A stretch of 64,000 nucleotides of DNA, taken from NCBI GenBank assembly GCA_000169115.1, contig AAVV01000002.1:124001-188000 (forward strand), in the 5' to 3' direction. This DNA is from a marine gamma proteobacterium HTCC2080 (GTDB taxonomy: Bacteria > Pseudomonadota > Gammaproteobacteria > Pseudomonadales > Halieaceae). The notes beneath the pieces are model-generated. The model saw only the letters and a program-made list of their open reading frames with translations. It did not search any database and was not told the DNA's origin. How positions within the stretch are numbered: the first letter of the stretch is position 1; the number at the start of each line of letters is the position of its first letter. Position numbers and translations under genes: made by a program. Shown here one piece after another: positions 9,566 to 46,673 of the stretch.

Positions 9566-9567
9566 AG

Positions 9568-10185: not shown

Positions 10186-10199
10186 CGGAGGGGTAGGGA

Positions 10200-22253: not shown

Positions 22254-22254
22254 G

Positions 22255-22326: not shown

Positions 22327-22384
22327 TGCCAAGTGATTCGGTGAATCGTGTCTTCATTAGATATCCTCTCATTGTATTGGCGCC

Positions 22385-23338: not shown

Positions 23339-23385
23339 AGTTTACGCTTTAGTAGTGAGCCTTTGTGTATCATTTACGGCCAAAT
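23339..23385 (-). promoter_or_regulatory. Locus promoter 1: SDR-crotonase-MFS unit
   Basis: The 20-bp element on the minus strand (23385-23366) reads ATTTGGCCGTAAATGATACA, 14 of 20 identical to the copy at 31911. A -10-like TAAACT lies at 23344-23339, 24 bp after AATGAT. This is the weakest of the five copies. The predicted leader to the SDR start is about 70 bases. Confidence 0.55.
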
Positions 23386-23388
23386 CGA

Positions 23389-23434
23389 GATTGTCTGAAT
23401 ATGATTATATTGAGCTTTAGACGCTCTACATAAT
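23389..23434 (+). promoter_or_regulatory. Locus promoter 2: acetoacetate-decarboxylase-like gene
   Basis: Element GATTGTCTGAATATGATTAT at 23389-23408, then CATAAT as -10 at 23429-23434, 23 bp after TATGAT. It is only three bases away from the opposite-facing element of the SDR promoter, so the two could share a bound regulator. Confidence 0.7.
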
Positions 23435-23490
23435 TGAGTCTCCAGTTTGCTGAAAGCAGTCTCAGACAGAAGTAGCCGAGATCATTCAAG

Positions 23491-24387
23491 ATGAAATTTA
23501 TCCAAGTCCTGAAGTTGTTGTTCAAACCGAAGCTGTTGTCCAAAATCAAGAACTCGAAAAGTTCGGACACCGGTAGCCCTTTTGTCAAAAGTTACAAAGA
23601 CTTGATGGCAGGGGGTAGGCCGACGGCTGATTTTTACAATGCCGAAATGCTGAACCTGTTTTGGGAAACCACTCCTGAGGCGATTGCAACGTTGTTGCCG
23701 CCCCCACTAAACCCAGCTTCAAAACCTGTGGTGGCTGCGTTTATTGCATACTATCCCGAGACTAACTTCAGTGTTCCGTACCACGAATCGTCTATCCTCA
23801 TAAGAGCAAGCTATAAGGGCGAGGAAGGATTTTATTGCCTGTCCATGCCGGTAGACGATGATATGGCGATGGCGGGTGGACGCGAAACTTGGGGCTACCC
23901 GAAGAAAATGGCAAATTTTTCGTTTTCGCGTGAAGGCGACACAGTGACTGGGTATACAGAACGCCACGGCATTAAATTTATGCAGGTTAAGGCCAAGCTG
24001 ACGGGCAAGGTTAATAACGGCAATGCGGCACTAGATGAGATTCTCGGGCTAGGCGTTAAACCTGACGGCGAATTTTCTGACAAGGTCTATCTGTTTAAAC
24101 ACTCTCACTCGCCGGTAAAAACTGGAATATTTGACTACCCCCCCTTGTTGGTCGAAGGACATACGCGCTTTAGGCCAAAGACGTTTACCTGGGCAGAGAC
24201 CGAAATAAAACTTACACCGTCGGAGTATGATCCCTGGCAAGAAGTCCCGGTTGAGCGCATGCTGGGCGGGTTTTATACGGTTGGTGATAACTCGATGTTA
24301 CACGGGCGAGTGCTGCAAAAAGTCAATGAACTTGAATTTCTCCCTTACTCTTTCCTGAAGTATGAATTTGAACAAAACAGAACCTGA
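23491..24387 (+). CDS. Acetoacetate decarboxylase-family protein
   Basis: The family (ADC, PF06314) uses a Schiff-base lysine to decarboxylate beta-keto acids; relatives do aldol or hydratase chemistry. The motif GGRETWGYPKKMANF is clear: Lys138 (with Lys139 next to it) corresponds to the catalytic Lys115-Lys116 pair of the clostridial enzyme in its YPKK motif. The protein is 298 aa, longer than classical ADC (about 245 aa) through an N-terminal arm rich in lysine. It is transcribed alone from the locus promoter, ends in a probable terminator, and could remove CO2 from a keto acid made by the pathway. Confidence 0.82.
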   Translation: MKFIQVLKLLFKPKLLSKIKNSKSSDTGSPFVKSYKDLMAGGRPTADFYNAEMLNLFWETTPEAIATLLPPPLNPASKPVVAAFIAYYPETNFSVPYHESSILIRASYKGEEGFYCLSMPVDDDMAMAGGRETWGYPKKMANFSFSREGDTVTGYTERHGIKFMQVKAKLTGKVNNGNAALDEILGLGVKPDGEFSDKVYLFKHSHSPVKTGIFDYPPLLVEGHTRFRPKTFTWAETEIKLTPSEYDPWQEVPVERMLGGFYTVGDNSMLHGRVLQKVNELEFLPYSFLKYEFEQNRT

Positions 24388-24405
24388 TCACTAGTCGGTT
24401 TTTTT
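24381..24405 (+). terminator. Candidate terminator of the decarboxylase-like gene
   Basis: Imperfect stem AACC-(T)-GA / TC-GGTT around a seven-base loop, followed by seven T. It starts inside the last codons of the gene. Confidence 0.45.
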
Positions 24406-24457
24406 AACTCCAGGCAGCTTGTCGAAATGACAGCAACCTTGTGAAAAAGGGCTTTAC

Positions 24458-25456
24458 TCAAGGCGATGCCTGCTGCCGATAATCGGCAGGCGTGGTCGAG
24501 TTCCACCGTTGGAAGGCTCTATGAAAGTTGGTGGCTTCGGCATAGTTCAGAAGATCTGCTACTTCAACGACGCTGAGTGATGTTTTACGCAGATAGTTTT
24601 GGGCAAGGGTGTTCTTGATGTCATCGAATATTGTCCGGAAATCTGTTCCCTCAGCCGCCAGGTGGCGCCTGAGGGAACGCTCGGTAACGTGTAATTTTTC
24701 TGCTACTTCAGAGATACTGAGAAACTTCCCGGCTGAATGAATGAGTAAACGGCGCACGATCGCGGTGGTTTCATCGACCTCTGTCATACCGTTAACTAAT
24801 TCCTCGCACTGCTGGCTGAACAGTACGTTAGTCGTTGGGTCTCCGGTTCTTACCCGCTGGCGTAACCACTGATCGGGTAGAAATATCTGGTTATATTCCT
24901 GATCGAACTCCATCGGCACTGAAAAGCGCTCCTCGTAGGCGTCAAAGTGCGCTGGCCTGGGATAACTGAAATACCCTCTGACGCCTTCGTATGATCCACC
25001 GACCAGTACGTCACTCATTCCACGAAAATTCGAAAAAACCGATTCGGTAACAAGCATCTGTTGGTAATTAGTGCCGGCCGTTTGCTCCAGACGAAGGATC
25101 AGCCCGTCGTCGTGGCCTATACGGAGCCAACTGGAAGATTCTAGAAAGGTATGCCCATAGCGAAGAAAGAACTCCACGGAAGCACCTATGTTAGGGCAGC
25201 TCATGAGGGCGAAACCGTAGGTACCGTATGCAGCAAGATCTATATCTTCACCGATTCGAAGCGCTAACAGGGGGTCTCCCGACATTGTCACTGCTGTTTC
25301 AAGGATCTCATGCACGGTAGGAGGCGATTGCCTGCTGGGGGCGGATTCACGGCCTAGAATAGCGGCTTCAATCAATTCAAGAGGGTCGATTCCGAGTCTT
25401 TCCATCCTGGCTCGAAAGGCCTTGACCGCGAACTCTCGCATAGGGTCATAGTTCAT
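24458..25456 (-). CDS. AraC-family regulator with N-terminal arabinose_bd-type domain
   Basis: 332-aa transcription regulator. The N-terminal two thirds match the ligand-sensing domain of OruR/ArgR-like AraC proteins (PF12625; note DIDLAAYGTYGFALMSCPNIG). Residues from about 235 form the two helix-turn-helix units: ISEVAEKLHVTERSLRRHLAAEG and VVEVADLLNYAEATNFHRAFQRWNSTTPADYR. AGGAG lies 8 bases before the ATG. It is the last gene of the monooxygenase-DUF3604-sulfatase unit, 33 bases behind the sulfatase, so it is probably co-expressed with the genes it controls. It is the only regulator in the locus and the natural candidate to bind the five shared promoter elements. The ligand is unknown. 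Confidence 0.88.
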   Translation of the reverse strand: MNYDPMREFAVKAFRARMERLGIDPLELIEAAILGRESAPSRQSPPTVHEILETAVTMSGDPLLALRIGEDIDLAAYGTYGFALMSCPNIGASVEFFLRYGHTFLESSSWLRIGHDDGLILRLEQTAGTNYQQMLVTESVFSNFRGMSDVLVGGSYEGVRGYFSYPRPAHFDAYEERFSVPMEFDQEYNQIFLPDQWLRQRVRTGDPTTNVLFSQQCEELVNGMTEVDETTAIVRRLLIHSAGKFLSISEVAEKLHVTERSLRRHLAAEGTDFRTIFDDIKNTLAQNYLRKTSLSVVEVADLLNYAEATNFHRAFQRWNSTTPADYRQQASP

Positions 25457-25489
25457 GGATTCTGCTCCTGGATGCCTGAGTTGTCACCG

Positions 25490-27316
25490 TCATGGAGTGC
25501 CCCTTGATGTTTTCATAAGCTTTCGAGCAATGAGAAGGACGATGATTGTAACCAGAATCAAAGTGAAAATTGTACCGCTCGGGGTGTTCAAACTATTCTT
25601 AAGCTTGGCTTTGATACCGTTCCGTAGAATCTGAACTGGCTGATGATAGTTATGTGGCACCGGTATCACTCCGTTTACACTGGCGTAGGTTTCATATTCG
25701 GAAAGTAAGTCAAAAAATATGGCTGTCTCAACAGTTTCTAATCGTTCAGTTTCCCCTGGGTCTTGTGTGATGTTGTAGAGATGCCAACGGTTGTCGTTTG
25801 TGCCGCCTCGATTTAGGGTGATTTTATAGTCGCCTTTGATGAGTGCTGCGTTGCCGCCAATCTCATAGGCGATAACGTCTTCATGAGCATAAACAGAGTC
25901 TGCTGCTGCAGTGATGATAGGTAGCAGGTCTCTGCCTGTGTTGGCCTCGATTGTTCTGCCTTTGTATTGCGTGCCGGGGTGCTGGGTGCCTGCCAGTGCA
26001 AGAATCGTGGGCGCCAGATCTTTCACAAATGCTTTGCTGTGGCTGATACTCCCCCGGTGAGTGTCGGCAACCCGTGGGCCGCTTATAATCAGGGGTACGC
26101 GCATGCCGCCTTCGCCAGAATAAAATTTGTAGTGACCTAAAGGTGAAGCTGCCGCGCTGCCGAAACTGACCCCCAGCGTGTTGTAACTATAACGCTCGCC
26201 CAGTGTTTCGAAATCGCGGTTGTATCCCAGCAATTTAATCCAAAGCAGGGGCAGGTCTGCGGCGGCTGGACCGTTGTCGGAAGTAAATAGAATGATCGTG
26301 TTGTCGTATTGGCCGGAGTCTCTTAGGTATTGAATGAGACGGCCGATATAATGATCCATGGCATCGACCATGCCGGCGTATACGGCCATTCGCTTGTCAT
26401 TGTAACGTTTCTCCTCTTCTGAGAGATCATCCCAGTCGGTCGTTGATGGCATCCGCTTCATGGGGGCGCTGGCGGGTAAAAGTCCCAGATCTTTAACGGC
26501 TTTCTGGCGATTTTTGCGCAGCGCATGCCAGCCATCTTTATAGCTTCCAATATATTTTTTGGTGAATGCTTTAGGGGCTTGCACGGGTATGTGTACCGCT
26601 TGAAACGACACATAAGAGAAAAAGGGCTTTCTGTTTGTTCTAGTGGTATGCAGATTGTTCTCCAGTTGCTCAATGGCTTTATCGACGATAAATTTGGAAG
26701 AATAAAAGTCTTCAGGCACGGAGAATTCCTTACCGTTTTCTAACCAGAGAGTTTTTTCATAGTGGGGAACGTAAGATTGCTGTGTCCAGTTGTCGCCTCC
26801 AGAAAAAGGCATGGTGACCGTTTGCTCGAAGCCCCGGTTTATCGGCAGTAATGATTCGTCTGCATACCCTAGGTGCCATTTGCCGGCCAATGAGGTGTTG
26901 TATCCTGCATCCTTCAACAGAGTAGCGATAGTGACGACGTTGTGATTGAGTGTCCCGCGATAAAACGGTGAGTGGGCTTGCTCGGGTGTCAGCGCTTCAC
27001 TGATATTGGCCACACCTGCTCGATGGCTATCAACGCCGGTTAATAGCATGGCGCGAGTTGGGGCGCAGCTGGCCGTTGTATGAAAGTTACTGAAGCGCAG
27101 TCCGTTTCGTGCCAGATGATCCAAGTTGGGCGTGCTGATTTCACTGCCATATGAACCTATGTCTGAATAGCCTAGGTCGTCAGCAAGGATCAACAGAATA
27201 TTGGGCCTACTATCTATGTCTGGTTCGGCAAGGGCGTAGCTTACACAGCACAAACTGCAGATCAGGGAAATAGCGCCACTGCATTGAGCAAGGTACGATC
27301 TAATTGACGAAATAAT
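25490..27316 (-). CDS. Exported sulfatase with C-terminal membrane anchor
   Basis: Formylglycine-dependent sulfatase: NILLILADDLGYSDIGSYG gives the metal-binding DD, SCAPTRAMLLTG the CxPxR signature whose Cys becomes formylglycine, then GKWHLGY and ILFTSDNGPAA. A hydrophobic helix near the C-terminus (FTLILVTIIVLLIARKLMK) should anchor it. The frame is open far upstream, but the only ATG there would overlap the DUF3604 gene by 119 bp. An ATT at 27316 has AGGGGA five bases before it and gives a perfect signal peptide (ISSIRSYLAQCSGAISLICS and on to SYALA), so I propose an AUU start and 608 aa. It is in the unit monooxygenase-PfpI-DUF3604-sulfatase-AraC. It would remove sulfate from an organic ester in the periplasm. 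Confidence 0.82.
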   Translation of the reverse strand: MISSIRSYLAQCSGAISLICSLCCVSYALAEPDIDSRPNILLILADDLGYSDIGSYGSEISTPNLDHLARNGLRFSNFHTTASCAPTRAMLLTGVDSHRAGVANISEALTPEQAHSPFYRGTLNHNVVTIATLLKDAGYNTSLAGKWHLGYADESLLPINRGFEQTVTMPFSGGDNWTQQSYVPHYEKTLWLENGKEFSVPEDFYSSKFIVDKAIEQLENNLHTTRTNRKPFFSYVSFQAVHIPVQAPKAFTKKYIGSYKDGWHALRKNRQKAVKDLGLLPASAPMKRMPSTTDWDDLSEEEKRYNDKRMAVYAGMVDAMDHYIGRLIQYLRDSGQYDNTIILFTSDNGPAAADLPLLWIKLLGYNRDFETLGERYSYNTLGVSFGSAAASPLGHYKFYSGEGGMRVPLIISGPRVADTHRGSISHSKAFVKDLAPTILALAGTQHPGTQYKGRTIEANTGRDLLPIITAAADSVYAHEDVIAYEIGGNAALIKGDYKITLNRGGTNDNRWHLYNITQDPGETERLETVETAIFFDLLSEYETYASVNGVIPVPHNYHQPVQILRNGIKAKLKNSLNTPSGTIFTLILVTIIVLLIARKLMKTSRGTP

Positions 27317-29354
27317 TGTTTTCCCCTGATGCGCTGTACCAGATAGGTGACGACCATGCGCGTTCCTGAATAGTCGCTGGCAGGTCTGAGCGAGGTTTTT
27401 CGCCGGCGCGGATGGCATCCCATGTAGACCAGCGACACACTGGATTCTCCAGTACGCGCACGTAATAAAATGCTTCTTGCCCGGCGGTAAAGTCAGGGTC
27501 TTGCCATAATGTTTTAAGCTCGCTTGCACCCACATTGGCTGTTCTGGAGCAATCATCCAGGTTCACTTGCGCGCCGTTGTCCGGGCAACGATGGGTCTGT
27601 GGATCAACACTCAAGCCATCGGAGCAGGCCACATCAAACACCTGTTCCTGGTGTTCACCGTTTTCAAGCCAGCCTTTGATAATTTGCACGCGTTGCAAAT
27701 TGGCGGTATTCGGGTCAGCTACGGCCCAGGTCAGGAAAGTGGGGGCGCGGTCATTGCTGGCTTGCAAGGTGCTACCCATCGTAGCTCCGTTTTTGTAAGC
27801 GGTGCCGATAAGCTCATGGCTGTCCAGCTGTACATTGGCCAGATCGTAGCCAGCGAAAAATCTCACCTTCATCCGAGTGCCGCTAGTAGCGAATGTTTCC
27901 TTGCGGCGCAGCGCATCATAAATGGCTTCACGGGTATTATTCTCTGCCCATACCCCAGCAATACCCGAAGCCCCCCAGTACTTGTAGTTCTGGAAATTCA
28001 AATAAGTCTCGCCGTCTACCTCATCAATCATTTCGGGCGCGGCCAATTTGATCAGGGTGCCGTAGAGAAAGCTTGCAGGTACAGAGCCGCGCTTTTCCGG
28101 GGTAGCGTCCAAACTGCCAATTTTACCGAAGTAGTTATCCTCCTCCAGTGCAGCGGCGGCTGTGTGCGTATCGCTGGAACCGATGACGCCAAATTGGTAA
28201 GGGTTGGCGTTATTGGCTTCTGCCATGGCAAGACCGCGCTGCCATGCGTTTCGCACATAGCTGCCCTTGGGCTCACTGGGTAAAGTAGAAGCTACCCGCA
28301 GGGGAGAAATTCCGAAATTGGCCCACTCATCGTTTTTTGATAGGAGCGGATGCGTGTCAGACGTGCCTTTAACCTGAGTAATTTCGACCAGGGGTTCGTT
28401 GCGCATTCGCTGGTCTGCGTATTCTTGATCGATATTGTTTCCGGACCAATCGGTAAACGCGAACATCGCACCGTTGGAGCCATTGCTGTTATGCGGAATC
28501 GCCAAGCTTTCTATGCCTTGGTCGCGCAGGTTATCCATCCAGTCCCAGAGACCTTCGGGATTGATGCTGTTCAGGCGGGAGAAGGGTACAGCGGGCAAAC
28601 TGTCCGAGCCGCGGAAAATAACGTTGCGGTGCAGATTTTGCTTATCCCCGGAACTGCTGGTGTATTCATAAGCCGCAAATGTGGTGAACTGGCCAGGTTG
28701 GTAAGCGGCGTTGGCGGCTTCCACTGTCTCAATCCACGCTGATTTGCTGACCTTGTTAACGGTGGCGTTGTCGAATGTGCCGTCGAGCAGGTTGGCGACC
28801 ACGTCACTGAAAAAATGGTTGAAGATAAGATTTCTTTTGGCCATATCGAACAGCCCACCATCAACCGAATCATTGATGTTGTGGTAGGACTCTGACAGTT
28901 CGTATTGCGAGAATTCTGTACTGGTGTCGGCGGCCTCGTTCACCAGACCCAGCATGATTGCATGATCGGTCACCGCGTAAAAATCCAATGGTTGTGCCAG
29001 CTGTACTTCAAAGCCGCCGGGATGCAAGATCGCCTCACCCTGAGCATAACGGTAAGCATCTGCTGGAGTGGCGGTTGTACCAAAAGCCGAGGCATCAAAA
29101 GACAGCGTCGTATGCACATGCAGATCGCCGAAGTAGGCATTGCGATCCGGGTTGGACTCCAGTCGACTGCTGTCAGTATCTGGCAGGGGCGGGAATGAAA
29201 TGATCTCATTCTCCGCTGGAATAACGGTGTTCGTTGTACGGTAGTACTCACGCGCCTCAAGTCTCTTTTGTTCCGTCGCTTGGTCGCCGGAACAGGCACT
29301 GATCAACGCAATAGCGGCTAACACACCTGTACTGTAAAACACTCGATAGATCAT
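27300..29354 (-). CDS. DUF3604 lipoprotein (PHP-like metal-dependent hydrolase), copy A
   Basis: Family of unknown function related to PHP phosphoesterases. Lipoprotein signal with lipobox LISAC; I start at the ATG at 29354 because AGGGGAA precedes it (684 aa). PHP-type metal ligands are visible: GDLHVHTTLSF (HxH), FYAVTDHA (DH), a Glu in AAYEYTSS, LAIPHNSN and GVIGSSDTHT. Toward the end lies the segment AVADPNTANLQRVQIIKGWL and the family tail PATIQERAWSSPIW. It is clearly more distant from copies B and C than they are from each other. It lies between the DJ-1/PfpI gene and the sulfatase, so it probably acts in the periplasm on the same compound. Confidence 0.82.
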   Translation of the reverse strand: MIYRVFYSTGVLAAIALISACSGDQATEQKRLEAREYYRTTNTVIPAENEIISFPPLPDTDSSRLESNPDRNAYFGDLHVHTTLSFDASAFGTTATPADAYRYAQGEAILHPGGFEVQLAQPLDFYAVTDHAIMLGLVNEAADTSTEFSQYELSESYHNINDSVDGGLFDMAKRNLIFNHFFSDVVANLLDGTFDNATVNKVSKSAWIETVEAANAAYQPGQFTTFAAYEYTSSSGDKQNLHRNVIFRGSDSLPAVPFSRLNSINPEGLWDWMDNLRDQGIESLAIPHNSNGSNGAMFAFTDWSGNNIDQEYADQRMRNEPLVEITQVKGTSDTHPLLSKNDEWANFGISPLRVASTLPSEPKGSYVRNAWQRGLAMAEANNANPYQFGVIGSSDTHTAAAALEEDNYFGKIGSLDATPEKRGSVPASFLYGTLIKLAAPEMIDEVDGETYLNFQNYKYWGASGIAGVWAENNTREAIYDALRRKETFATSGTRMKVRFFAGYDLANVQLDSHELIGTAYKNGATMGSTLQASNDRAPTFLTWAVADPNTANLQRVQIIKGWLENGEHQEQVFDVACSDGLSVDPQTHRCPDNGAQVNLDDCSRTANVGASELKTLWQDPDFTAGQEAFYYVRVLENPVCRWSTWDAIRAGEKPRSDLPATIQERAWSSPIWYSASGENNYFVN

Positions 29355-29409
29355 TGAGCTTCCCCTGCCTTTATTATTTTTTGTTGCTATTTGTTTGACT
29401 TGATGTCGC

Positions 29410-30264
29410 CTATTGGCGAGCGATAATGGCAATCATCTTTTGCGCGGTTTCCAAACCTGAGTTTTGATTCTGCCCGGTGATAAAGCGCTGCTCTGCATCG
29501 ATGGCCACGTGCGTCGCCAAAACATCGCGAAACGCCGTTTGGCTTTCAAATACCGCACCGGCTTTACGCAGCTCCGTTTCTGGATGCAGCGGAGTCAGTT
29601 CAATGTTCAGCTCTTTGAGCTGCTTGTCGGTGACGCCTGTCATGGCACGACCCGCTATCAGCTTGTTGCCGTTAAGGTCTTTTACGTTGATAAAGCCCAG
29701 GGCACCGTGGCAGACAGAACCCATGAGTGGCTCTTTAGCGCCGTAATAGGCATCACCTATTTTATTTGCTAACTCTTCTGAATAACCCAAGTCGTAAGCT
29801 GCACCCCAACCGCCGACAATAAAAATGGCGTCGTACTGGTTGAAATCGACGTCATCTATACGCAGGGAGTTTTCCACCTTGGCGAGTAGAATGGGGTCAT
29901 CGAGGTAACGCTTGTCTTCAGGGCTGATCATGACACGGCCCAGGCCGCTAGGGTCCACTGGAATTTGACCGCCCTTAATGCTGGCGACATCAATCTGCAT
30001 GCCGGCATCCAGGTAGCTGTAATAGGGGTGTGTCAACTCTGAAAGAGCGATACCGGTAGCTTTACCCGTTGTTTCCCCCGGAGCATTTAGCACCCCGTGA
30101 CTGGTGGTTACTATGAGTGCGCGCATGCCGGCAGGCAGTTGATGGGTTTCGCCTGTGTATTCCGGGTGTAAGCCAGCCTTGTGCATGATGGTCGGTAATG
30201 CAATGACAAATACTGCGATAGCGACAACGAACGCAGCCCCAACTTTAAGCATTGTGTTTTTCAT
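29410..30264 (-). CDS. DJ-1/PfpI-family protein, membrane-anchored
   Basis: Class I glutamine-amidotransferase-like fold of the DJ-1/PfpI superfamily. The nucleophile-elbow cysteine is in GSVCHGALGF, and FIVGGWGAAYDLGY precedes it, the usual arrangement in Hsp31-like members. The N-terminus is a single hydrophobic segment (VGAAFVVAIAVFVIALPTIM), so the protein is anchored in or exported across the inner membrane. I chose the ATG at 30264 (284 aa) because AGAGG precedes it and longer frames run into the monooxygenase gene. It starts 16 bases after that gene. Members include glyoxalase III, deglycase-like and hydratase activities; the role here, perhaps handling a reactive carbonyl, is inference. 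Confidence 0.78.
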   Translation of the reverse strand: MKNTMLKVGAAFVVAIAVFVIALPTIMHKAGLHPEYTGETHQLPAGMRALIVTTSHGVLNAPGETTGKATGIALSELTHPYYSYLDAGMQIDVASIKGGQIPVDPSGLGRVMISPEDKRYLDDPILLAKVENSLRIDDVDFNQYDAIFIVGGWGAAYDLGYSEELANKIGDAYYGAKEPLMGSVCHGALGFINVKDLNGNKLIAGRAMTGVTDKQLKELNIELTPLHPETELRKAGAVFESQTAFRDVLATHVAIDAEQRFITGQNQNSGLETAQKMIAIIARQ

Positions 30265-30280
30265 GGTTTGGCCTCTGATG

Positions 30281-31735: not shown

Positions 31736-31769
31736 GGGTGTGTTTTTCGGTCGTGTTTCGAGTGCTGGC

Positions 31770-31816
31770 AGTATAAGTGTCGCTCACGGGCCCCGGTATA
31801 TCATATCCGGACATGG
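31770..31816 (-). promoter_or_regulatory. Locus promoter 3: monooxygenase-to-AraC unit
   Basis: Minus-strand element CCATGTCCGGATATGATATA at 31816-31797, with TATACT as -10 at 31775-31770, 24 bp after TATGAT. The predicted leader is about 28 bases. Confidence 0.7.
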
Positions 31817-31910
31817 TATTTGAGCGCTCGAGCAAGAGCACAAATGTGCGTGCCAGAATAGGGCAGGTATCCTGAGTCTGTTCCGAGTTTGGAGGCTGAA
31901 GTTCTCGACA

Positions 31911-31956
31911 GATTGTCCGAATATGATACTCACAGGCAGGAGCGTGTAGATATACT
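31911..31956 (+). promoter_or_regulatory. Locus promoter 4: DUF3604B-to-GST unit
   Basis: Element GATTGTCCGAATATGATACT at 31911-31930, with TATACT as -10 at 31951-31956, 23 bp after TATGAT. No -35 hexamer is seen; the element itself overlaps the -35 position, as in activator-dependent promoters. Confidence 0.75.
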
Positions 31957-32016
31957 CCAGTTCACCTAAGAAGATTGAACTTCCCGGGTCCTGGCCATCT
32001 GGTGAGAGGCAGTGTC

Positions 32017-34098: not shown

Positions 34099-34121
34099 AT
34101 TGAAATGAGGGCTGTAAAGTC

Positions 34122-36158: not shown

Positions 36159-36190
36159 AATTAATAACAAATAATAAGGAGCGCGGGGTT

Positions 36191-37516: not shown

Positions 37517-37571
37517 CTACGAAAAAAAAACACATCAAAAAATATATAAATAACCAAGAGCAGAAATAAAG

Positions 37572-39035
37572 ATGAAATCAAAACCGATAAAAATCCTTAT
37601 TGCCTTGGTGGTGACGCTAGTCGTTGCCGGCGGCAGTTATTGGCAGGTCAATTTCAATAAAGACTGGCGCCAGCAGTACGCCTACAGCAAAGGTGTGGAC
37701 GCACTGATTTACGCGTTTCCCTATTATTTGAACACAGTGCTTCGCTATAAGTGGGGTCAGCCTGAAGCGCCAGAGGGTCAGCAAGTACCGCTGCACGCGA
37801 CAAACAAGTTCTGGCACGCGACGTTTGTCGATCCTAAAAACTATCGCGACGGTGGTGCGCCGAATGCCGATACGCTTTACTCACCTGCCTGGGTATACGC
37901 CAAAGAGCAGCCGATCATTATTACGGTACCGGAAATTCCGGGTGACCGATATTTTGCAATTGAACTGGCGGGTTTTGATTCAGACAACTTTGCCTATATC
38001 AGCAAGCGCCTCCACGGCAATGGTGGCGGTAACTATGCCATCGTGCCGCCGAATTGGCAGGGAGACTTGCCCGACGATGTGGAGTTTGTAGCCCATAATC
38101 CAACCCCCTGGTTTTATGCCATGGCCAGAATTTATGCTGACTTCAATGACCCCAGTGATCAGGCAGCGGTTGCAGCCATACAGTCACAAATGCAGATTGT
38201 GGGCTTGAGTGACTGGGGTAAGGAAAATCCCCCCCGACCTGCGCACCCGCCTGTTCCCGATGTCGGTGATCTGAGTGATGTTCTGCTTGAATCCGATGTG
38301 GTGAGTTACATTAAAAAAATGGTGATCTCAGATCCGATGTCTTTCTGGCGCACCGTCAATCACGCGATGACCGTCAATGGTGTGCCTGAGCGTGATCAGC
38401 GCTATTTGAAAGATTGGGCCGAGCTACATATTGGACCGGACCAGGATGTATCCCAGGCAGAGGAAAATGAGCAGGCAGGCCTGGCCAAGGCAGTGCTTGA
38501 TGGCATCATGATCATGCGCGCCTACAGGAGCAGCGAAGATAGAAAGGTCAACGGTTGGGGTGTGCCACCAGTCGGCTTCGGGCGCTCCGGCGTTCACGGA
38601 AATTTTTATATGCGCGGAGCCATTCAGTCGATGCGGGGCATTGTCGCCAACGATGCCGAAGAAGCCATGTATATGGCCAGGGATAAAGATCAGAACGGCG
38701 ACAGCATTACCAGCGAGCATACCTACGAACTCCACTTTCCGTCGGGACAAACTCCGCCAGCCAGGTATTTCTGGTCACTCACAGTTTACGACCAGGACGC
38801 CAACCTGATGCTCAACGACTATGACCGCTATGCCACCAGCGGTAACTCAGAGGACTTGATCTACGAAGACGATGGCAGCCTGCGGATTCTGATCGGTGGC
38901 AAGCCTCCTGAGGGAATGGTTGGCAACTGGTTACCGGCGGGTGAGTCTTTCACTCGAGTTACATTGCGAGTGTACGGCCCCGAGAAAGCCATGTTGGAGC
39001 GAAGCTGGAAGCCGCCCCAGTTGAAGCGACTTTAA
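37572..39035 (+). CDS. DUF1254/DUF1214 domain protein, membrane-anchored
   Basis: 487 aa with an N-terminal hydrophobic helix (ILIALVVTLVVAGGSYW). The DUF1254 part includes NKFWHATFVDPKNYRDGGAPNAD-type sequence, the family's conserved stretch that ends in NADTLYSPAW, and the C-terminal DUF1214 part has HFPSGQTPPARYFWSLTVYD and NDYDRYATSG, as usual in two-domain members. The biochemical role of this pair is not established. It follows the propeller-like gene by 55 bases and is followed by the leftover DUF3604 tail. The export signal together with the DUF3604 proteins and sulfatase indicates that several steps of this pathway take place outside the cytoplasm. Confidence 0.82.
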   Translation: MKSKPIKILIALVVTLVVAGGSYWQVNFNKDWRQQYAYSKGVDALIYAFPYYLNTVLRYKWGQPEAPEGQQVPLHATNKFWHATFVDPKNYRDGGAPNADTLYSPAWVYAKEQPIIITVPEIPGDRYFAIELAGFDSDNFAYISKRLHGNGGGNYAIVPPNWQGDLPDDVEFVAHNPTPWFYAMARIYADFNDPSDQAAVAAIQSQMQIVGLSDWGKENPPRPAHPPVPDVGDLSDVLLESDVVSYIKKMVISDPMSFWRTVNHAMTVNGVPERDQRYLKDWAELHIGPDQDVSQAEENEQAGLAKAVLDGIMIMRAYRSSEDRKVNGWGVPPVGFGRSGVHGNFYMRGAIQSMRGIVANDAEEAMYMARDKDQNGDSITSEHTYELHFPSGQTPPARYFWSLTVYDQDANLMLNDYDRYATSGNSEDLIYEDDGSLRILIGGKPPEGMVGNWLPAGESFTRVTLRVYGPEKAMLERSWKPPQLKRL

Positions 39036-39071
39036 TGAAACCGCGCAATATAAATGGTCTCGAGGATGACA

Positions 39072-39149
39072 ATGAAAACACGATTGAGTGAAACCCTGTG
39101 GGAACGTGCCTGGTCTTCGCCGGTCTGGATCGAAGTAAACCGAGATTAA
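39072..39149 (+). pseudogene. Leftover C-terminus of a fourth DUF3604 gene (25 codons)
   Basis: A short frame starting ATG at 39072 encodes MKTRLSETLWERAWSSPVW plus six residues. The block ERAWSSP-W is the conserved C-terminal tail of the three intact DUF3604 proteins in this locus. GAGGA precedes the ATG, so it may still be translated. It ends three bases before the CoA-ligase start. I infer a deletion that removed all but the end of a fourth copy; a translated leader peptide is the alternative. Confidence 0.65.
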
Positions 39150-39152
39150 CTG

Positions 39153-40973
39153 ATGTCAGTGTTCGCCAGTTTGAAAGAAGTCGTCAGGGTATTGAATGAG
39201 ATACGGCAGTCTCGTGCTGCCATTGGCTTCAAAATGCCCGCACTGGATGAGGCGATTTCCCTTGGGGTAATCTTTGAAGAGACGGTGCGTAGGCACGGTG
39301 ACTTGCTTGCCCTCGAGTTTGAGGGACGCAGCTGGACGTACTCACAGCTGAACCAGGAAATCAATCGGCTGGCCCATCTACTAAAGGCGCAGGGTGTGAA
39401 GCAAGGCGAGGGTGTCGCCCTGTTCATGGAAAATCGGGCCGAGTTTGTCATCTCGTTGTTGGCCCTTACCAAGATTGGAGCCCCTGCTGCACTCATCAAC
39501 AATAGCCTGAGCGGCGAAGCCCTGGTGCACTGTTGTAAAGTGACGAACGCCAAACACTGCATTGTAGGCGACGAGCGCGCCGATGTGCTGGCACCCGAGT
39601 TGGCTGGCTTGCCTTTTGGCCAGGGGCATGGGTCTTGCTTTTGGATGAAAGACACTGTTGATCGCGAAGCACCCGGCTGGGCGATGGACGCTAACCAGGC
39701 CATGCAGGGGCACTCTGATCAGGACCTGCCTGAAACCCAAGGTATCCTCGCCGGTGATGTGGCGCTGTACATTTTCACTTCCGGTACAACGGGCCTGCCC
39801 AAGGCCGCTACTTACAAGCAGCAGCGCCTGGTTGCGGCGGCCAATCTGTTGGGTTCGCTCACCCTGAGACCCAAACCAGGCGATCGGCTATACCTTTGCT
39901 TGCCGATCTACCATATCACCGGGCTGGGGCCTGGTTTGTGCGGTTTCATCGCCGCTGGGGGCACGGTTTGCTTGCGTCGTACCTTTTCAGCCAGCAAATT
40001 CTGGAGTGAGGTGCAGGCCTGGCAGACCAATAGCTTTGTGTACGTGGGAGAGTTGTGTCGTTATCTGGTGACCCAGGCTCCCAGTGACGCCGAAAAAAAC
40101 AATCCTCTGCAGAAAATGGTGGGCAACGGATTAAGGCCTGACGTATGGGATGAATTTAAGTCGCGCTTTGACGTGAATCGCATTTGCGAGATCTACGGTT
40201 CCAGTGAAGGTAATGTCACCTTTCTAAATCTTCTGAATAAGGACCGCACCATTGGGACCACATCGGTCGATGTTGCCTTGGTTAAATACGACGTCATTGA
40301 AGACGCTATTGTGCGGGACGATGCTGGGCGTTGTGAGCTGGCCAAGCCCGGTGAGCCGGGACTACTACTTGGGAAAATCACTGACATCACTCCGTTCGAT
40401 GGTTACACCAATGCAGAGGCGACCAACAACAAAATTATTGAGAACGTGCAGGAAGCGGGTGATCGTTGGTTTAATACCAGCGATCTTGTGCGCGAAATCG
40501 ATGTTGGCTTTGCCATGGGCCTCAAGCACTACCAGTTTGTCGATCGTACCGGTGACACCTTTCGTTGGCGTGCTGAAAATGTTTCAACCAATGAGGTAGG
40601 GGAGGTGCTTAATTCCCACCCGCAGATCAATATGGCGAATGTCTACGGCGTAGAAGTACCCGGCACCGAGGGCAGAGCGGGGATGGTGGCCTTTGCCCTT
40701 GAAGCCGGTACCGACTTTGACATAGACGGTTTCCGTGCGCTGGTGGATACCAGGCTGCCCGACTACGCGCGGCCAGTGTTCGTGCGTCTGCAGCAGGATA
40801 CTGAAACCACGGTTACCTTTAAGCTGCTGAAGGGGAAGCTGCGCGAGCAAGCCTACCATCTGGACAAGGTGGGTAAAGACCGGATGTATGTTCGTCACCC
40901 TCGCAGCGGTGAATATCGAGTGCTGGATGATGAGTTTTATCAGAAGATTCTGGCGGCTGAGGCGGGTTACTAG
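39153..40973 (+). CDS. FATP-like long/very-long-chain acyl-CoA synthetase
   Basis: ANL-superfamily ligase that activates a carboxylic acid with ATP and CoA. The P-loop YIFTSGTTGLPKAA is near residue 206, EIYGSSEGNVTFLNL is the A5 region, and DRTGDTFRWRAENVSTNEVG near 470 is the hallmark of the FATP/SLC27 and bacterial FadD6-like branch, which handles very long, branched or steroid-type acids. Length (606 aa) is normal for that branch. It begins three bases after the DUF3604 remnant. It probably delivers the CoA thioester on which the crotonase and other beta-oxidation-type enzymes act. Confidence 0.87.
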   Translation: MSVFASLKEVVRVLNEIRQSRAAIGFKMPALDEAISLGVIFEETVRRHGDLLALEFEGRSWTYSQLNQEINRLAHLLKAQGVKQGEGVALFMENRAEFVISLLALTKIGAPAALINNSLSGEALVHCCKVTNAKHCIVGDERADVLAPELAGLPFGQGHGSCFWMKDTVDREAPGWAMDANQAMQGHSDQDLPETQGILAGDVALYIFTSGTTGLPKAATYKQQRLVAAANLLGSLTLRPKPGDRLYLCLPIYHITGLGPGLCGFIAAGGTVCLRRTFSASKFWSEVQAWQTNSFVYVGELCRYLVTQAPSDAEKNNPLQKMVGNGLRPDVWDEFKSRFDVNRICEIYGSSEGNVTFLNLLNKDRTIGTTSVDVALVKYDVIEDAIVRDDAGRCELAKPGEPGLLLGKITDITPFDGYTNAEATNNKIIENVQEAGDRWFNTSDLVREIDVGFAMGLKHYQFVDRTGDTFRWRAENVSTNEVGEVLNSHPQINMANVYGVEVPGTEGRAGMVAFALEAGTDFDIDGFRALVDTRLPDYARPVFVRLQQDTETTVTFKLLKGKLREQAYHLDKVGKDRMYVRHPRSGEYRVLDDEFYQKILAAEAGY

Positions 40974-41057
40974 GAGGCGAGGCTTAGCCTGGTCCTGCCC
41001 GCAATAGACAAACACCGTCTTACCGTCTCCATCAAGAAAGGCCACTAGAGTTCCGAC

Positions 41058-42407
41058 ATGCTTGAACCAGAGAACAATCCCACCGCCTCTTACTTCGTTG
41101 ACCCGCCGCGCCTGCTACGCTTTTTGGTGTCAAAGAGACTTAGCCGATTTGCAAATGCAGAATGGAGAGGGAAGAAACGAGCAGCCGCCGAGAAGAGTCG
41201 CAGGGCCGAGGGGCGAGCTCACGTAGTGGAGTATTTCCACCAGGTGGACGATCCCTATTCGCACCTGATGGCGCAGGTAGTCGCGCAGTTCGCCGAGCGT
41301 TATGACATTGAAGTTGCGCCGCATCTCATCCGCGCAACCGGTGGTAGCAGCCAGCCCGAGGAAGAAAAGCTGGCAGTTTGGGCACGCCGTGACTGTGGAT
41401 TGATAGCGCCGCATTATGGCTTGAGCTTTCCCGATAATGCTGGCGTCGTGCCTGAGCCGCAATTGCAGCAAGCGGCTAATCGAGCGCTGACTAAGCTTGG
41501 TCCAAAAGATTTTCTAACTCAGGTTGAAGGTATTAGCACCAGCTTATGGTCAGATGGATCTATCGACGCTGGCCAGGTGACGGCGGAGGAGGCTGAAGCG
41601 GCTCTCGATGCTGGGTCTGCGCGCCTTGCAGAGTTGGATCATTATTCAGGCGCGATGCTCTACTATGCTGGCGAGTGGTACTGGGGCGTTGACCGGCTGT
41701 TTCACCTGGAGCAGCGCCTGCGCGAGTTGGGTGTGGCTAAAGAGCCAGGTCAACCCTATATAGCGCCTCGGCCTGAACTGGACGTTAGGGGGGTTGACGC
41801 CAGCGGGCTGCAATTGCATTTCTTCCCCTCTCTGAACAGCCCCTATACCGCAATCATTTATGACAGCACAATCGAACTCAGTCGGGCCTGCAAGATAAAC
41901 CTTCACCACAAACCTGTTCTGCCGATGGTAATGCGGGGCGTCCCTGCCCCCTCGACCAAGGCGACCTATATTTTCTTTGATGTAAAGCGCGAGAGTGAAT
42001 TTCTGGGTGTGCCTTTTGGAAACACGGTAATAACGATTGGCGAGCCTACCCGACAGTCCTACTCGCTAATGCCCTGGGCCAAGTCGCTTGGGAAAGATAT
42101 AGAGCTCCTCAGTACTCTATTGCGCTATGCCTTTGCAGAAGGCATAGGGTTACACAAAAAGAAGAATATAAAACGAGCGGTAGAAGAAGTGGGGCTGGAG
42201 TGGAGGGAGGCTCTTAAGCACTTTGGCGGTGAAGACTGGAAGCCGTTCATAGAAAAGCATCAGGATGAAATGGTGGAGGGCATGGGTCTATGGGGTGTGC
42301 CTTCCTACCGGCTTTGTGGTCCCGACGGTGAGCCTGATCTGGAGGTTTGGGGGCAGGATCGTCTGTGGCTAGTGGCAGCAGAGATTCGACGTCGCGCCTC
42401 GCTTTAG
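41058..42407 (+). CDS. Double DsbA-like (HCCA-isomerase/GST-kappa type) protein
   Basis: 449 aa that look like two thioredoxin-fold DsbA-family domains in one chain. The first begins at about residue 55 (HVVEYFHQVDDPYSHLMAQ), the second at about 252 (LQLHFFPSLNSPYTAIIYDS). Each has the strand-(x)-SPY/DPY-helix opening of 2-hydroxychromene-2-carboxylate isomerases, and the end GMGLWGVPSYRLCG with WGQDRLWLV is the conserved cis-Pro and C-terminal pattern. No CxxC is present, so it is not a disulfide oxidase but probably a glutathione-dependent isomerase or transferase. No signal peptide. It sits between the CoA ligase and a GST-like gene. Confidence 0.75.
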   Translation: MLEPENNPTASYFVDPPRLLRFLVSKRLSRFANAEWRGKKRAAAEKSRRAEGRAHVVEYFHQVDDPYSHLMAQVVAQFAERYDIEVAPHLIRATGGSSQPEEEKLAVWARRDCGLIAPHYGLSFPDNAGVVPEPQLQQAANRALTKLGPKDFLTQVEGISTSLWSDGSIDAGQVTAEEAEAALDAGSARLAELDHYSGAMLYYAGEWYWGVDRLFHLEQRLRELGVAKEPGQPYIAPRPELDVRGVDASGLQLHFFPSLNSPYTAIIYDSTIELSRACKINLHHKPVLPMVMRGVPAPSTKATYIFFDVKRESEFLGVPFGNTVITIGEPTRQSYSLMPWAKSLGKDIELLSTLLRYAFAEGIGLHKKKNIKRAVEEVGLEWREALKHFGGEDWKPFIEKHQDEMVEGMGLWGVPSYRLCGPDGEPDLEVWGQDRLWLVAAEIRRRASL

Positions 42408-42449
42408 TGTTTCTCCAACCTGATTCCTTATATTAGTGTTTTTCCAACC
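42404..42449 (+). repeat. 17-bp direct repeat at a gene junction
   Basis: TTAGTGTTTCTCCAACC at 42404-42420 recurs as TTAGTGTTTTTCCAACC at 42433-42449, a 29-bp offset. The first copy contains the stop codon of the DsbA-like gene. Probably a small slippage duplication. Confidence 0.7.
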
Positions 42450-42458
42450 ACTGGATTT

Positions 42459-43487
42459 ATGATGAATGATTTGAGACTCGTAGGCAGCTCGGTATCGCCC
42501 TATACACGCAAAGTGCGCGCGCTTTTACGTTTCCGGCGCATTCCTTTTCAGTTCGTTAGGAAAGGGGGGCGAGAGTCAGACGATCTTCCACCTGCACCGC
42601 TGCCACTGATTCCCTATGTCATATTTCCAGATCGGAACGGTGAATTGACAGATGCGTTGGGCGATACAACGCCTATTATCAATCGCCTCGAGGATGACTA
42701 TACGGCGCGCGCTGTGCGGCCAAAGGATCCGGCACTGGCCGTGATCGATGCATTGCTGGAAGAGTTCGGTGATGAGTGGTTGTCTAAATGTATGTTTCAT
42801 TTTCGTTGGTCAAAAGCATTGGACACACAGACCTCGTCGTCCTATCTGGCCTATGCCATGAATATGACGGCGACACCCGAGCAGGGAGAGGCGTTTGCCA
42901 GGATGTTTGCCGAGCGGCAGATTTCCCGGATTGGTGTGGTCGGGTCGAATGAAACAACCGGCCCTCTTATCGAAGAAAGCTGGGAACGCTATCTGGACGT
43001 GTTTGATCGTCACCTCCAGAACCAGCCGTTTCTCTTAGGTAATCGTCCCGGTGCGGGCGACTATGGCTGCTTTGGCCAGATGACTATGCTCGTATTGACA
43101 GATCCTACGCCTCAAGCGGTTTCTCGGCGTATCTCACCTCGTGCTTTTGCATGGACAGAAGCCATGGAAGACCATTCTGGATTGGAGGTCGATGACTCAG
43201 ATTGGATTGACCTGGATGCGCCACCAGAGACACTCAACGACTTGCTGTGTGAATTGGGGCGATTGTTTGTGCCATTCATGCTCGAAAATGCCAAGGCTGC
43301 GGCAAGCGGCGACAAAATGTTCGAATGTGAGCTGGATGGAAGTCCCTGGGTGCAAGAGACCTTCGTCTATCAGGCCAAATGCCTAAAGTGGTTGAAACAA
43401 CGCTACGATAATCTTGGTGAAAACGACAAAGCGCGTCTCGATAATGTTTTGTCTGGAACGGGGTGTGAAGTGTTGTTTGCAGGATAA
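42459..43487 (+). CDS. Glutathione S-transferase-like protein
   Basis: 342 aa. The N-terminal thioredoxin-like domain opens LVGSSVSPYTRKVRALLRFRRIPF, where SPYTRKV replaces the usual SPy/SPC-x-KV glutathione-site motif, followed by the cis-Pro region LIPYVIFPDRNGELTDALGD and STPI-like TTPIINRLE. The C-terminal helical domain includes FLLGNRPGAGDYGCFGQM, the common N-capping box of GSTs. It is considerably longer than an ordinary GST (about 210 aa). Two adjacent ATGs (42459, 42462) could serve. It is the last gene of the long plus-strand unit. Activity on a pathway intermediate is inferred. Confidence 0.75.
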   Translation: MMNDLRLVGSSVSPYTRKVRALLRFRRIPFQFVRKGGRESDDLPPAPLPLIPYVIFPDRNGELTDALGDTTPIINRLEDDYTARAVRPKDPALAVIDALLEEFGDEWLSKCMFHFRWSKALDTQTSSSYLAYAMNMTATPEQGEAFARMFAERQISRIGVVGSNETTGPLIEESWERYLDVFDRHLQNQPFLLGNRPGAGDYGCFGQMTMLVLTDPTPQAVSRRISPRAFAWTEAMEDHSGLEVDDSDWIDLDAPPETLNDLLCELGRLFVPFMLENAKAAASGDKMFECELDGSPWVQETFVYQAKCLKWLKQRYDNLGENDKARLDNVLSGTGCEVLFAG

Positions 43488-43581
43488 TAAGCAGGTTAAC
43501 GGGTTTTCGAAACCGAACTCCGAGTTGGGGCCGAACCCTCTTGGTCAGGTCGCAAGGCGTGACCAGGTATCCTCTGGATAA

Positions 43582-43881
43582 TCAATAAGCCTGAAAGTAA
43601 GAAAGTATCTCCATGTCTTTATGGGGGATACCAATGATGTCTATACTATTCTGACTGCGCAAATAAAATACAATGTGCTGGCCCTCAGGAAAACTATAGT
43701 ACCCCTCAGTAATATCAGTTCGATGCCTTCCATCGGTGGGATTCTCGGCGAGCCAGATAAAACGATTCTCCAGGTTTTTCAGCTACGCATTTCGCTGGGC
43801 CCTGCCCCAATGTTGCTGAGTGTAACGGCCGATGGATTTCAGGTCTTCCTCTGCCCGTGGTGTAACTCTGTATTTTGCCAT
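43582..43881 (-). pseudogene. parE: ParE/RelE-type toxin gene with in-frame amber codon
   Basis: The minus strand reads MAKYRVTPRAEEDLKSIGRY, TQQHWGRAQRNA, then TAG at codon 33 (43785-43783), then LKNLENRFIWLAENP and on through EGYYSFPEGQHIVFYLRS to NSIDIIGIPHKDMEILSYFQ and a TGA stop. This is a complete ParE toxin of 99 codons except for the amber, which replaces the tyrosine expected in RNAYL. Its ATG shares one base with the stop of parD, the normal toxin-antitoxin layout. The toxin should be inactive unless the TAG is suppressed or is a sequencing error. Confidence 0.85.
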
Positions 43882-44129
43882 TAGGCTTCATTGTCCAAGT
43901 CACTTATCAATGCGTCCATTGAGAAATCATCGACAAAGTCGCCGGCTTTAGCTTGCTGCGCGCCCTGAGCCAAATGAGCCCTCAAGGCTTCCAGTTTACT
44001 TTTTCGTTCTTCCATGCTGCGAAGTGCATCACGAACAACTTCGCTGGCCGAGCCGTAACGACCACTGGAGATTTCGTTTTTGATAAATACTTCCCAATGC
44101 TCACCTAGACTTAAACTTGTGGTAGCCAT
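43881..44129 (-). CDS. parD: ParD-type antitoxin (CopG/RHH)
   Basis: 82-aa antitoxin of type II parDE modules. The N-terminal ribbon-helix-helix part TTSLSLGEHWEVFIKNEISSG and GSASEVVRDALRSMEE is typical of the CC2985 ParD group; the rest (AHLAQGAQQAKAGDFVDDFS) is the toxin-binding tail. It is read away from the TonB-receptor gene and is followed by the broken toxin gene with one base of overlap. An inverted repeat 14 bases upstream is a probable self-repression site. Confidence 0.88.
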   Translation of the reverse strand: MATTSLSLGEHWEVFIKNEISSGRYGSASEVVRDALRSMEERKSKLEALRAHLAQGAQQAKAGDFVDDFSMDALISDLDNEA

Positions 44130-44142
44130 ATGTGCTTCTCGT

Positions 44143-44165
44143 ATTCATAAATAACAAATATGAAT
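44143..44165 (-). promoter_or_regulatory. Probable ParD operator (inverted repeat)
   Basis: Perfect arms ATTCATA and TATGAAT are separated by nine A/T-rich bases, 14 bp ahead of the parD start. Such palindromes at this position usually bind the ParD ribbon-helix-helix protein. Confidence 0.5.
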
Positions 44166-44285
44166 ATATTTCAGGCAGAGGAACAGTGCAAGGTGTAGTA
44201 TCTACGGATGCAGGTAACAGTATCTAACCTTCTGATATTAAGAAAGAATTTCCTTTTCGCCAAGGGCAGGATGGCAGGCAATGTC

Positions 44286-44331
44286 GATTGTCCTAATATG
44301 ATACTCTGAAAAACGAGATCCCGAATACACT
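44286..44331 (+). promoter_or_regulatory. Locus promoter 5: TonB receptor-GST unit
   Basis: Element GATTGTCCTAATATGATACT at 44286-44305, 19 of 20 identical to the copy at 31911. TACACT lies at 44326-44331, 23 bp after TATGAT. The predicted leader is about 35 bases. Confidence 0.72.
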
Positions 44332-46655: not shown

Positions 46656-46673
46656 TGTCTTGGAGGTCGTAAG

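Follow-up and report, generated by a model that had tools for sequence, protein, structure and literature searches.

A similar sequence element precedes five transcription units in one locus of the marine gamma proteobacterium HTCC2080, and the question is whether the AraC-family protein encoded in the same locus activates all five through it. The window, that is, the whole stretch of DNA analysed, comprises 64,000 nt (contig AAVV01000002.1:124,001-188,000, assembly GCA_000169115.1) of the 3.58-Mb genome. An earlier note had described five copies of a 20-bp element aligned on TGTCC-NN-ATATGAT and assigned all five units to this protein. Re-reading of the sequence confirmed the copies, their strands, their -10-like hexamers and the claimed 23- or 24-bp gap that follows TGAT (Table 1). 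Every copy points at the nearest gene, as had been stated. The 20-mers end 61 (31797(-)), 87 (31911(+), with the ATG at 32018 taken as the start), 67 (44286(+)), 82 (23389(+)) and 105 (23366(-)) bases from the start codon, the distances being worked out by hand.

The regulator belongs to the AraC/XylS family and is of the Arabinose_bd type, with an N-terminal PF12625 domain (96.3 bits) and a C-terminal HTH_18 domain (PF12833, 53.4 bits), both over the cut-off. The ORFs of unit 3 overlap or are 33 bp apart.

Table 1. Regulator gene, proposed transcription units, candidate AraC boxes and -10-like hexamers (positions in the window)
Feature	Position	Strand	Description
AraC-family regulator, 332 aa	24458..25456	-	Arabinose_bd + HTH_18; proposed activator; last gene of the 31797(-) unit
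Unit 1	18572..23260	-	SDR 22385-23260, enoyl-CoA hydratase (ECH) 21426-22253, MFS 20144-21487, amidohydrolase 18572-19810; boundary predicted from spacing
Unit 2	23491..24387	+	acetoacetate decarboxylase-like gene (PF06314)
Unit 3	24458..31735	-	BVMO/FMO-like, DJ-1/PfpI, DUF3604, sulfatase, AraC; presumably cotranscribed
Unit 4	32018..43487	+	DUF3604 x2, ORF without Pfam match, DUF1254/DUF1214, AMP-binding, DSBA-like, GST-like; presumably cotranscribed
Unit 5	44373..47315	+	TonB-dependent receptor, GST; presumably cotranscribed
Box TGGCCGTAAATGAT	23369..23382	-	candidate promoter of SDR-ECH-MFS-amidohydrolase unit; 20.7 bits
-10-like hexamer TAAACT	23339..23344	-	gap 24 after box 23369..23382
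Box TGTCTGAATATGAT	23392..23405	+	candidate promoter of acetoacetate decarboxylase-like gene; 18.0 bits
-10-like hexamer CATAAT	23429..23434	+	gap 23 after box 23392..23405
Box TGTCCGGATATGAT	31800..31813	-	candidate promoter of BVMO-DJ1-DUF3604-sulfatase-AraC; 20.0 bits
-10-like hexamer TATACT	31770..31775	-	gap 24 after box 31800..31813
Box TGTCCGAATATGAT	31914..31927	+	candidate promoter of DUF3604-DUF3604-...-GST unit; 26.2 bits
-10-like hexamer TATACT	31951..31956	+	gap 23 after box 31914..31927
Box TGTCCTAATATGAT	44289..44302	+	candidate promoter of TonB-dependent receptor-GST unit; 20.8 bits
-10-like hexamer TACACT	44326..44331	+	gap 23 after box 44289..44302

Sites for the alignment were drawn from 42 loci, where 87 were found. 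Discarding one site that lies within an ORF (L084) and merging those more than 70% identical over 86 bases left 66 non-redundant sites; seven further sites flagged inside ORFs were retained. Thirteen of the 66 stem from 12 loci selected by the box itself: among 28 such loci (L103-L130), these 12 were used because a cluster gene or an AraC gene lies beside or behind the box, 5 duplicated loci that the set already contained, and the remaining 11 were left out. The consensus is TG[GTA]CCGAA[TA]ATGAT[TA]C. Thus the 20-bp element is real, but its conserved core spans only about 16 bp. The pattern TGTCC-NN-ATATGAT is likewise present, but its NN is mostly GA (65/66 and 59/66), and the third position of the box varies among G, T and A, which makes TGGCC a regular form.

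The exact pattern TGTCCNNATATGAT, box 31800..31813 included, occurs three times in the genome, each time in this locus; the random genome-wide scatter that the earlier note named as refutation is thus absent for the exact pattern. Six places differ from TGTCCNNATATGAT by one mismatch: 23392(+), two in a second AraC cluster, and three elsewhere within ORFs. With up to two mismatches the window contains 8 matches against 3.95 in shuffled sequences (7 of 100 shuffles reach 8), and genome-wide there are 142, where the reversed pattern gives 84. By mismatch count, therefore, the two weak copies near 23 kb are not significant. The pattern with two mismatches is common throughout the genome. Similarly, the composite pattern with gap 23 and two mismatches gives 37 matches in this genome against 18 for the reversed control, so that only the three exact places are informative. 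When scored with a matrix built from the 66 sites, the window's five included, the five boxes stand apart (Table 1), the next-best place in the 64 kb reaching 12.2 bits.

Two orthologous loci (L083 and L079) also have the weak 23366(-) copy. There the counterpart of box 23392..23405 reads TGTCCGAATATGAT, and the hexamer matching 23429..23434, which counts as a miss in the window because it starts with CA rather than TA, is TATAAT at gap 23. Boxes 23392..23405(+) and 23369..23382(-) stand back to back. A box identical to that at 44289..44302 occurs in L084. Helical phasing or a fixed spacing of divergent boxes found no support, as the edge distances, determined by hand, vary: 10, 39, 40, 43, 56, 62, 101, 209 and 232 bp.

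The spacing holds far beyond the five promoters. A TANNNT hexamer lies 23 or 24 bp past the box in 61 of the 66 sites, which are not all independent since the clusters are partly homologous, and whose counting consensus was derived from the same loci; in 2000 shuffles the mean was 2.75 and the maximum 10. Without the 13 sites from box-selected loci the count is 49/53. The negative control consisted of places where the 14-mer is unconnected with such clusters; TANNNT at 23-25 bp was found there in 3/34 cases (2 of the 11 loci left out above and 1 of 23 order loci). These three places resemble real sites. No -35 hexamer is enriched among the related sites: at least four of six TTGACA positions match in 6 of 62 sites against 12.6 expected, in agreement with the claim that a usual -35 is missing. 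The class II geometry proposed for the five promoters is thus supported in the wider set by both the fixed gap and the lack of -35 enrichment. With transcription starts placed by the -10-like hexamer, the activator site would lie next to or over the -35 position at a fixed distance from the -10, as in class II promoters.

Comparison with related bacteria supports the link to the AraC protein that the earlier note had inferred. Within 408 kb around homologues that share 43% or more identity with the window protein there are 60 sites, whereas the reversed pattern gives 2. A site is present in 22 of these 23 regions (of the 23, two make up a single locus and one has a truncated AraC). At 38-42% identity there are 6 sites, in 3 of 6 regions, and below 38% none in 12 regions. 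Overall, homologues with as little as about 39% identity have the box beside them, in two families of the order and at one locus of a third. In the bacterial family the exact box TGKCCGAAWATGAT is present in 14/16 genomes with the AraC and 20/124 without a strong AraC match (Fisher p 1.9e-8); in the order sample the fractions are 7/21 and 46/369 (p 0.015). Box places, counted by hand, totalled 56 and 73, respectively, against 3 and about 38 for reversed controls. On the AraC tree the motif label changes 5 times, against 18.2 when shuffled. No such site was observed within about 1.5 kb of the 10 other AraC-like loci of the HTCC2080 genome.

The sites thus appear to track the regulator, with several exceptions. 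Three loci (L160, L161 and L163, the latter two near copies) have no site, and the association breaks near 38% identity. One motif-selected locus (L110) has a box, without TANNNT, next to a 32% homologue; another box (L158:2716) adjoins a 28% AraC gene, with a 48% homologue nearby. One genome with the AraC (G027) lacks the exact pattern and has variants ending in GAC; in another, with a 35% AraC (G080), neither the exact pattern nor nearby variants were found. Some of the 20 family genomes with the 14-mer and without a strong AraC match have pieces of the same clusters (L103, L114, L115, L118, L130), and others look chance-like. As a further control, DUF3604 genes have a box with TANNNT in 6 of 15 loci from AraC genomes and 1 of 15 from genomes without it (p 0.08), a weak comparison because the loci have 1.5-kb flanks only and some genes are second in their unit. 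The sole AraC-less control locus with a box is from G010, whose locus L103 contains an AraC fragment. In one locus (L087) the genes right behind the four boxes are unlike those of the window, but regulator and cargo are separated only in part, as a DUF3604 gene lies about 16 kb away on the contig.

The claim that the protein at 24458..25456 controls all five units is therefore supported as regards the link between box and regulator, but not as regards sole control. A paralogue with 43% identity (G000:C14:10770-11612) has its own boxed cluster elsewhere in the genome, and since its boxes are of the same kind, either protein could be acting, or both together. It is possible, although the less favoured reading, that the boxes serve the paralogue, or both proteins, and that the two clusters form one cross-wired regulon. 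The C14 boxes have the same type and -10 spacing, with the TGGCC form in 4/5, a form that also occurs in the window at 23369, and the recognition regions are similar (TERSLRRHL / EATNFHRAF and SERTLRRHL / ETVNFRRAF). On the other hand, each AraC gene adjoins its own box set, position 3 is T in 4/5 window boxes and G in 4/5 C14 boxes, and in genomes with one AraC (match E <= 1e-45; e.g. G056, G130, G131) the boxes still adjoin it. The idea that T or G at position 3 switches specificity between two AraC clades was rejected, as single clusters mix T, G and A. An evolutionary extension is more tentative still: the clade of full-length AraC regulators may have moved from a tandem-box ancestor to single-box class II activation, with two paralogues reading one box and thereby cross-wiring two DUF3604/Baeyer-Villiger-type clusters to two possible ligands.

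We consider it most probable (about 85%) that the locus is a class II AraC-family regulon in which the regulator at 24458..25456 acts at five boxes, one asymmetric box per promoter, with araC as the last gene of a target operon. The five promoters share the box and its spacing, and in relatives the box accompanies the regulator, so they are very probably co-activated by it. The protein would bind each asymmetric box of about 16 bp adjoining or covering the -35 position, at about -49 to -34 with the hexamer taken as -12 to -7, and would activate sigma-70-type promoters with a -10 and without a -35, most likely by contacting region 4 of sigma or the alpha C-terminal domain. A ligand of the N-terminal domain, probably a substrate or intermediate of the cluster, may switch it on. 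Since araC ends the 31797(-) unit, induction would also raise the level of the regulator, giving positive feedback.

Repression from the same boxes, with the promoters activated by something else, seems improbable. Position by itself is no proof of activation, and the AraC-family protein WhpR is described as a repressor of catabolic operons (PMC12538310). However, promoters without a -35 are what activator dependence should produce, and a forward box overlapping the -35 is given as the class II place in PMC6900184. An alternative sigma factor recognizing the element would explain the fixed distance and the missing -35, yet it is very unlikely: the hexamer has sigma-70-like forms (TATAAT, TATACT), the box tracks an AraC gene, and a similar box that recurs near the more distant homologues of family f21 is accompanied by a partial copy, with the -10 absent from the expected distance. 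The usual spacer between -35 and -10 is, moreover, shorter than 23-24 bp. That the repeats are functionless copies of one duplicated upstream region is hardly credible. Although the divergent pairs of orthologous loci resemble each other in part, the columns outside the box and the -10 are nearly flat in the 66 sites, the surroundings having diverged while the box has not.

For clusters centred on DUF3604, a protein family of unknown function that has a match at E <= 1e-60 in 133 of the bacterial family's 140 genomes, the analysis offers a regulon that can be put to the test, with box and spacing both specified exactly. Further members of such clusters, and their substrates, can be sought with the box. 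The presence of two paralogues in a single genome allows a direct test of cross-talk between regulators, and the 66 sites form a well-populated natural set of apparently single-box AraC class II promoters.

In the literature library searched, there was no match for five strings of the box and nothing for the AraC family with TGTCC and binding motif; AraC with Halieaceae gave only other matters, DUF3604 only a context of Chlamydia mutants, and QhpR mostly other meanings of the letters. The best NCBIfam matches are QhpR (residues 50-327, 153.6 bits), CypR (50-329, 146.8 bits) and GliR (14-330, 125.8 bits), all far under the curated cut-offs (250, 500 and 570), so the protein is none of these. 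The nearest solved structure by sequence is a distant one, PDB 5CHH, 'AraC family transcriptional regulator' (E 2.6e-22, residues 49-329), which we take to be CuxR of Sinorhizobium. CuxR is described, as cited in PMC12538310, as a c-di-GMP-responsive activator of exopolysaccharide genes.

Columns upstream of the box are nearly flat, so that the XylS/CphR-type arrangement of two direct repeats about 20-22 bp apart was not found, although a strongly degenerate second half-site is possible. Among the 45 offsets, the faint signal at -22 (z 1.8 for the matrix score, z 2.0 for the core-letter count) is no more than a best value, and -30 equals it. The f21 homologues of the same order (30-32% identity) differ: five of seven loci have TGGCCGGATATGAC next to the AraC gene; 22 bp further on comes a partial second copy, matching 7-10 of the 14 letters, and there is no -10 after 23-24 bp. 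MarA of E. coli consists of the DNA-binding part alone, whereas the protein considered here has an N-terminal Arabinose_bd domain and another box sequence. MarA class II promoters have a single asymmetric forward box over the -35 (PMC6900184), and one asymmetric box per promoter is what is conserved in the 66 sites. CphR of Rhodococcus, an example of class II AraC/XylS-type regulation from tandem repeats, binds two 15-bp direct repeats TGCA-N6-GGNTA at -35 to -49 and -55 to -69 according to PMC6205950, whereas the sequence here is different and no second box is conserved. Like the regulator considered here, however, CphR is an AraC-family regulator of a catabolic cluster, in both systems one asymmetric site comprises two sub-motifs, and the proximal CphR site, at -35 to -49, lies where the box would sit here (PMC6205950).

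All five copies of the box, an element of about 16 bp, are present at the window promoters as the earlier note stated, with their strands, -10-like hexamers and gaps of 23 or 24 bp. The box is non-palindromic, with the consensus TG[GTA]CCGAA[TA]ATGAT[TA]C; the flanking columns are nearly flat up to the -10, and no second box at a fixed distance is conserved among the sites. Once up to two mismatches are allowed, matches to the bare pattern are not unusual (8 in the window vs 3.95 in shuffles, 142 in the genome vs 84 for the reversed pattern), and thus other evidence is needed for the weaker copies. The string TGTCCNNATATGAT has three exact occurrences in the 3,576,081-base genome, all within the window locus. 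The back-to-back pair in the window (Table) is also present in loci L083 and L079. The box-like match within the sulfatase gene has no -10 at the right gap.

Promoter geometry was analysed at 66 non-redundant boxes from related clusters, the five window boxes included; the -10 played no part in choosing them. The -10-like pattern TANNNT is found at gap 23 in 25 sites, at gap 24 in 36 and at gap 25 in three; each of the remaining gaps between 5 and 51 accounts for 0-2 sites. On a per-site basis, 61 of 66 boxes carry TANNNT at gap 23 or 24 (2000 letter shuffles: mean 2.75, maximum 10), as do 49 of 53 when box-selected loci are left out. At places unconnected with such clusters, the 14-mer core of the box is followed by TANNNT in 3 of 34 cases (gaps 23-25). 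No enrichment of TTGACA-like hexamers was observed at the sites. In 63 of 66 sites a same-strand ORF, its start taken as the first possible codon, begins within a range from 60 bp ahead of the box end to 400 bp beyond it.

When upstream regions of relatives were compared, the box tracked the regulator. Regions around AraC homologues at least 43% identical to the window AraC contain 60 sites in 408 kb (reversed pattern, 2), regions around 38-42% homologues contain six sites, in three of six regions, and the 12 regions (215 kb) around homologues below 38% contain none. In the first class, which includes the paralogue on contig C14 and a truncated copy from genome G114, and where L083 and L084 are halves of one locus, 22 of 23 regions have a site; in the sole region without one, L086, AraC is at the contig start. 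In L110, a box-selected locus, a box without TANNNT adjoins a 32% AraC and a TonB-receptor-like ORF. In a quickly built tree with 54 AraC rows, five changes suffice to explain the motif label, vs 18.2 in shuffles, which ignore near-copies.

Among 140 family genomes, TGKCCGAAWATGAT was found at 56 places in 34 genomes (reversed control pattern, 3). It is present in 14 of the 16 genomes counted as having AraC at E <= 1e-45 vs 20 of 124 others (Fisher p 1.9e-8). In the order sample (390 genomes) it is near background, 73 places vs about 38 for the reversed control, and occurs in 7 of 21 genomes with an AraC match vs 46 of 369 without (p 0.015). Sixteen of the 73 places are in HTCC2080 itself, G028, G206 and G385, where AraC homologues include those of 43-100% identity; G178, G362 and G467 have a single place each, away from their AraC matches. 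G027, with a 44% homologue, has zero exact TGKCCGAAWATGAT and three GAC-ending variants.

The box pair of L101 is retained even though the AraC ORF next to it, 64% identical to the N-terminal part, has just 125 aa; the genome carries two other AraC homologues. The distant AraC gene at L158 may be a target, forming a possible regulatory cascade. In four AraC homologues without nearby boxes (L162, L164, L165, L166; L162 and L165 are identical), the ERT of the first recognition helix is replaced by KST or EST, which may reflect altered specificity. ERT is retained in L161 and L163, yet these are also without boxes.

In another family of the same order, f21, TGGCCGGATATGAC adjoins 30-32% AraC homologues in five of seven loci (L168, L169, L170, L143, L144); a second, partial copy follows 22 bp further along, and a -10 is absent at the 23-24 bp distance. 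As probable orthologues, these promoters are counted as one observation, which fits a recognition sequence shared across a wider clade.

Coordinates of boxes, genes and related features
Feature	Locus	Position (strand)	Remark
Two back-to-back boxes	window	23366-23408	14-mers 9 bp apart; imperfect inverted repeat between divergent genes
Box-like match, 12 bits	window	25691-25704 (-)	inside sulfatase gene, ~235 bp before araC
araC	window	24458-25456 (-)	proposed activator
24-codon stretch	window	22258-22329 (-)	between SDR and enoyl-CoA hydratase genes; 75% identical to AraC C-terminal end
Three DUF3604 genes	window	27300-36158	
459-aa ORF of unit 4	window	36137-37516	
Second AraC gene	C14	10770-11612	43% identical to window AraC
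Box	L031	5474 (-)	
Box	L031	7829 (+)	
Box	L031	9418 (-)	no gene faced within 400 bp
Box	L031	9538 (+)	
Box	L031	11868 (+)	
Two more DUF3604 genes	L031	12036-16187	second cluster
Divergent box pair	L101 (G114:C3)	9463-10952	beside AraC ORF of just 125 aa
Two boxes	L158 (G206)	2525-3765	between TonB-dependent receptor gene and second, distant AraC gene (28%)

The window cluster consists of genes for an amidohydrolase, MFS, enoyl-CoA hydratase, SDR, an acetoacetate decarboxylase-like protein, AraC (PF12625 and HTH_18), sulfatase, three DUF3604 proteins, DJ-1, an FMO/BVMO-like protein, DUF1254/1214, an AMP-binding enzyme, DSBA-like and GST-like proteins, and a TonB-dependent receptor. The ORF of unit 4 has no Pfam or NCBIfam match. 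Of the 140 family genomes, 133 have DUF3604 matches at E <= 1e-60, and multiple matches in one genome are common. Since 33 bp separate the sulfatase and AraC ORFs and the preceding ORFs overlap, the unit transcribed from the 31797(-) promoter probably ends with araC; this position would imply positive feedback on araC. The 24-codon stretch is a remnant of another AraC copy.

The cluster of the second AraC (locus L031) holds related MFS (77%), DUF3604 (66%, 71%) and BVMO-like (65%) genes. By simple shuffles its box count is unremarkable (7 matches in 19 kb at <=2 mismatches vs 4.7 expected); all five boxes have TANNNT 23 or 24 bp beyond.

Separation of the regulator from its cargo is only partial in L087, where four boxes surround an AraC 60% identical to the C14 paralogue. 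In the 12.1 kb analysed, the other ORFs give no match to the 25-protein reference set at E <= 1e-8, and Pfam assigns MFS, glyoxalase, DSBA-like, PQQ and acyltransferase-type proteins; therefore the genes directly behind its boxes differ. No second regulator was found among eight proteins scanned with Pfam. Two protein classes, MFS and DSBA-like, occur here again, and at the start of the L087 contig, some 16 kb from AraC, lies a partial DUF3604 gene (61%). On the 6.6-kb contig L167, one TANNNT-bearing box accompanies an AraC of 40% identity, and nothing there closely matches the genes of the cluster.

The regulon of AraC and its box suggested by the earlier note is well supported by sequence comparison, with binding, activation and a ligand predicted; the acting protein may be the window AraC, its C14 paralogue or both. 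Control of five promoters in this way would, with good support, be of an ordinary kind; in the literature searched there is no description of such regulation by this box and no occurrence of the box strings. The window AraC is distantly related to QhpR, CypR and GliR, scoring below their cut-offs, and to the PDB 5CHH protein of the AraC family (CuxR). The window promoter layout resembles the class II marbox layout (PMC6900184) and the proximal repeat of CphR promoters, whose distal repeat is absent here (PMC6205950).
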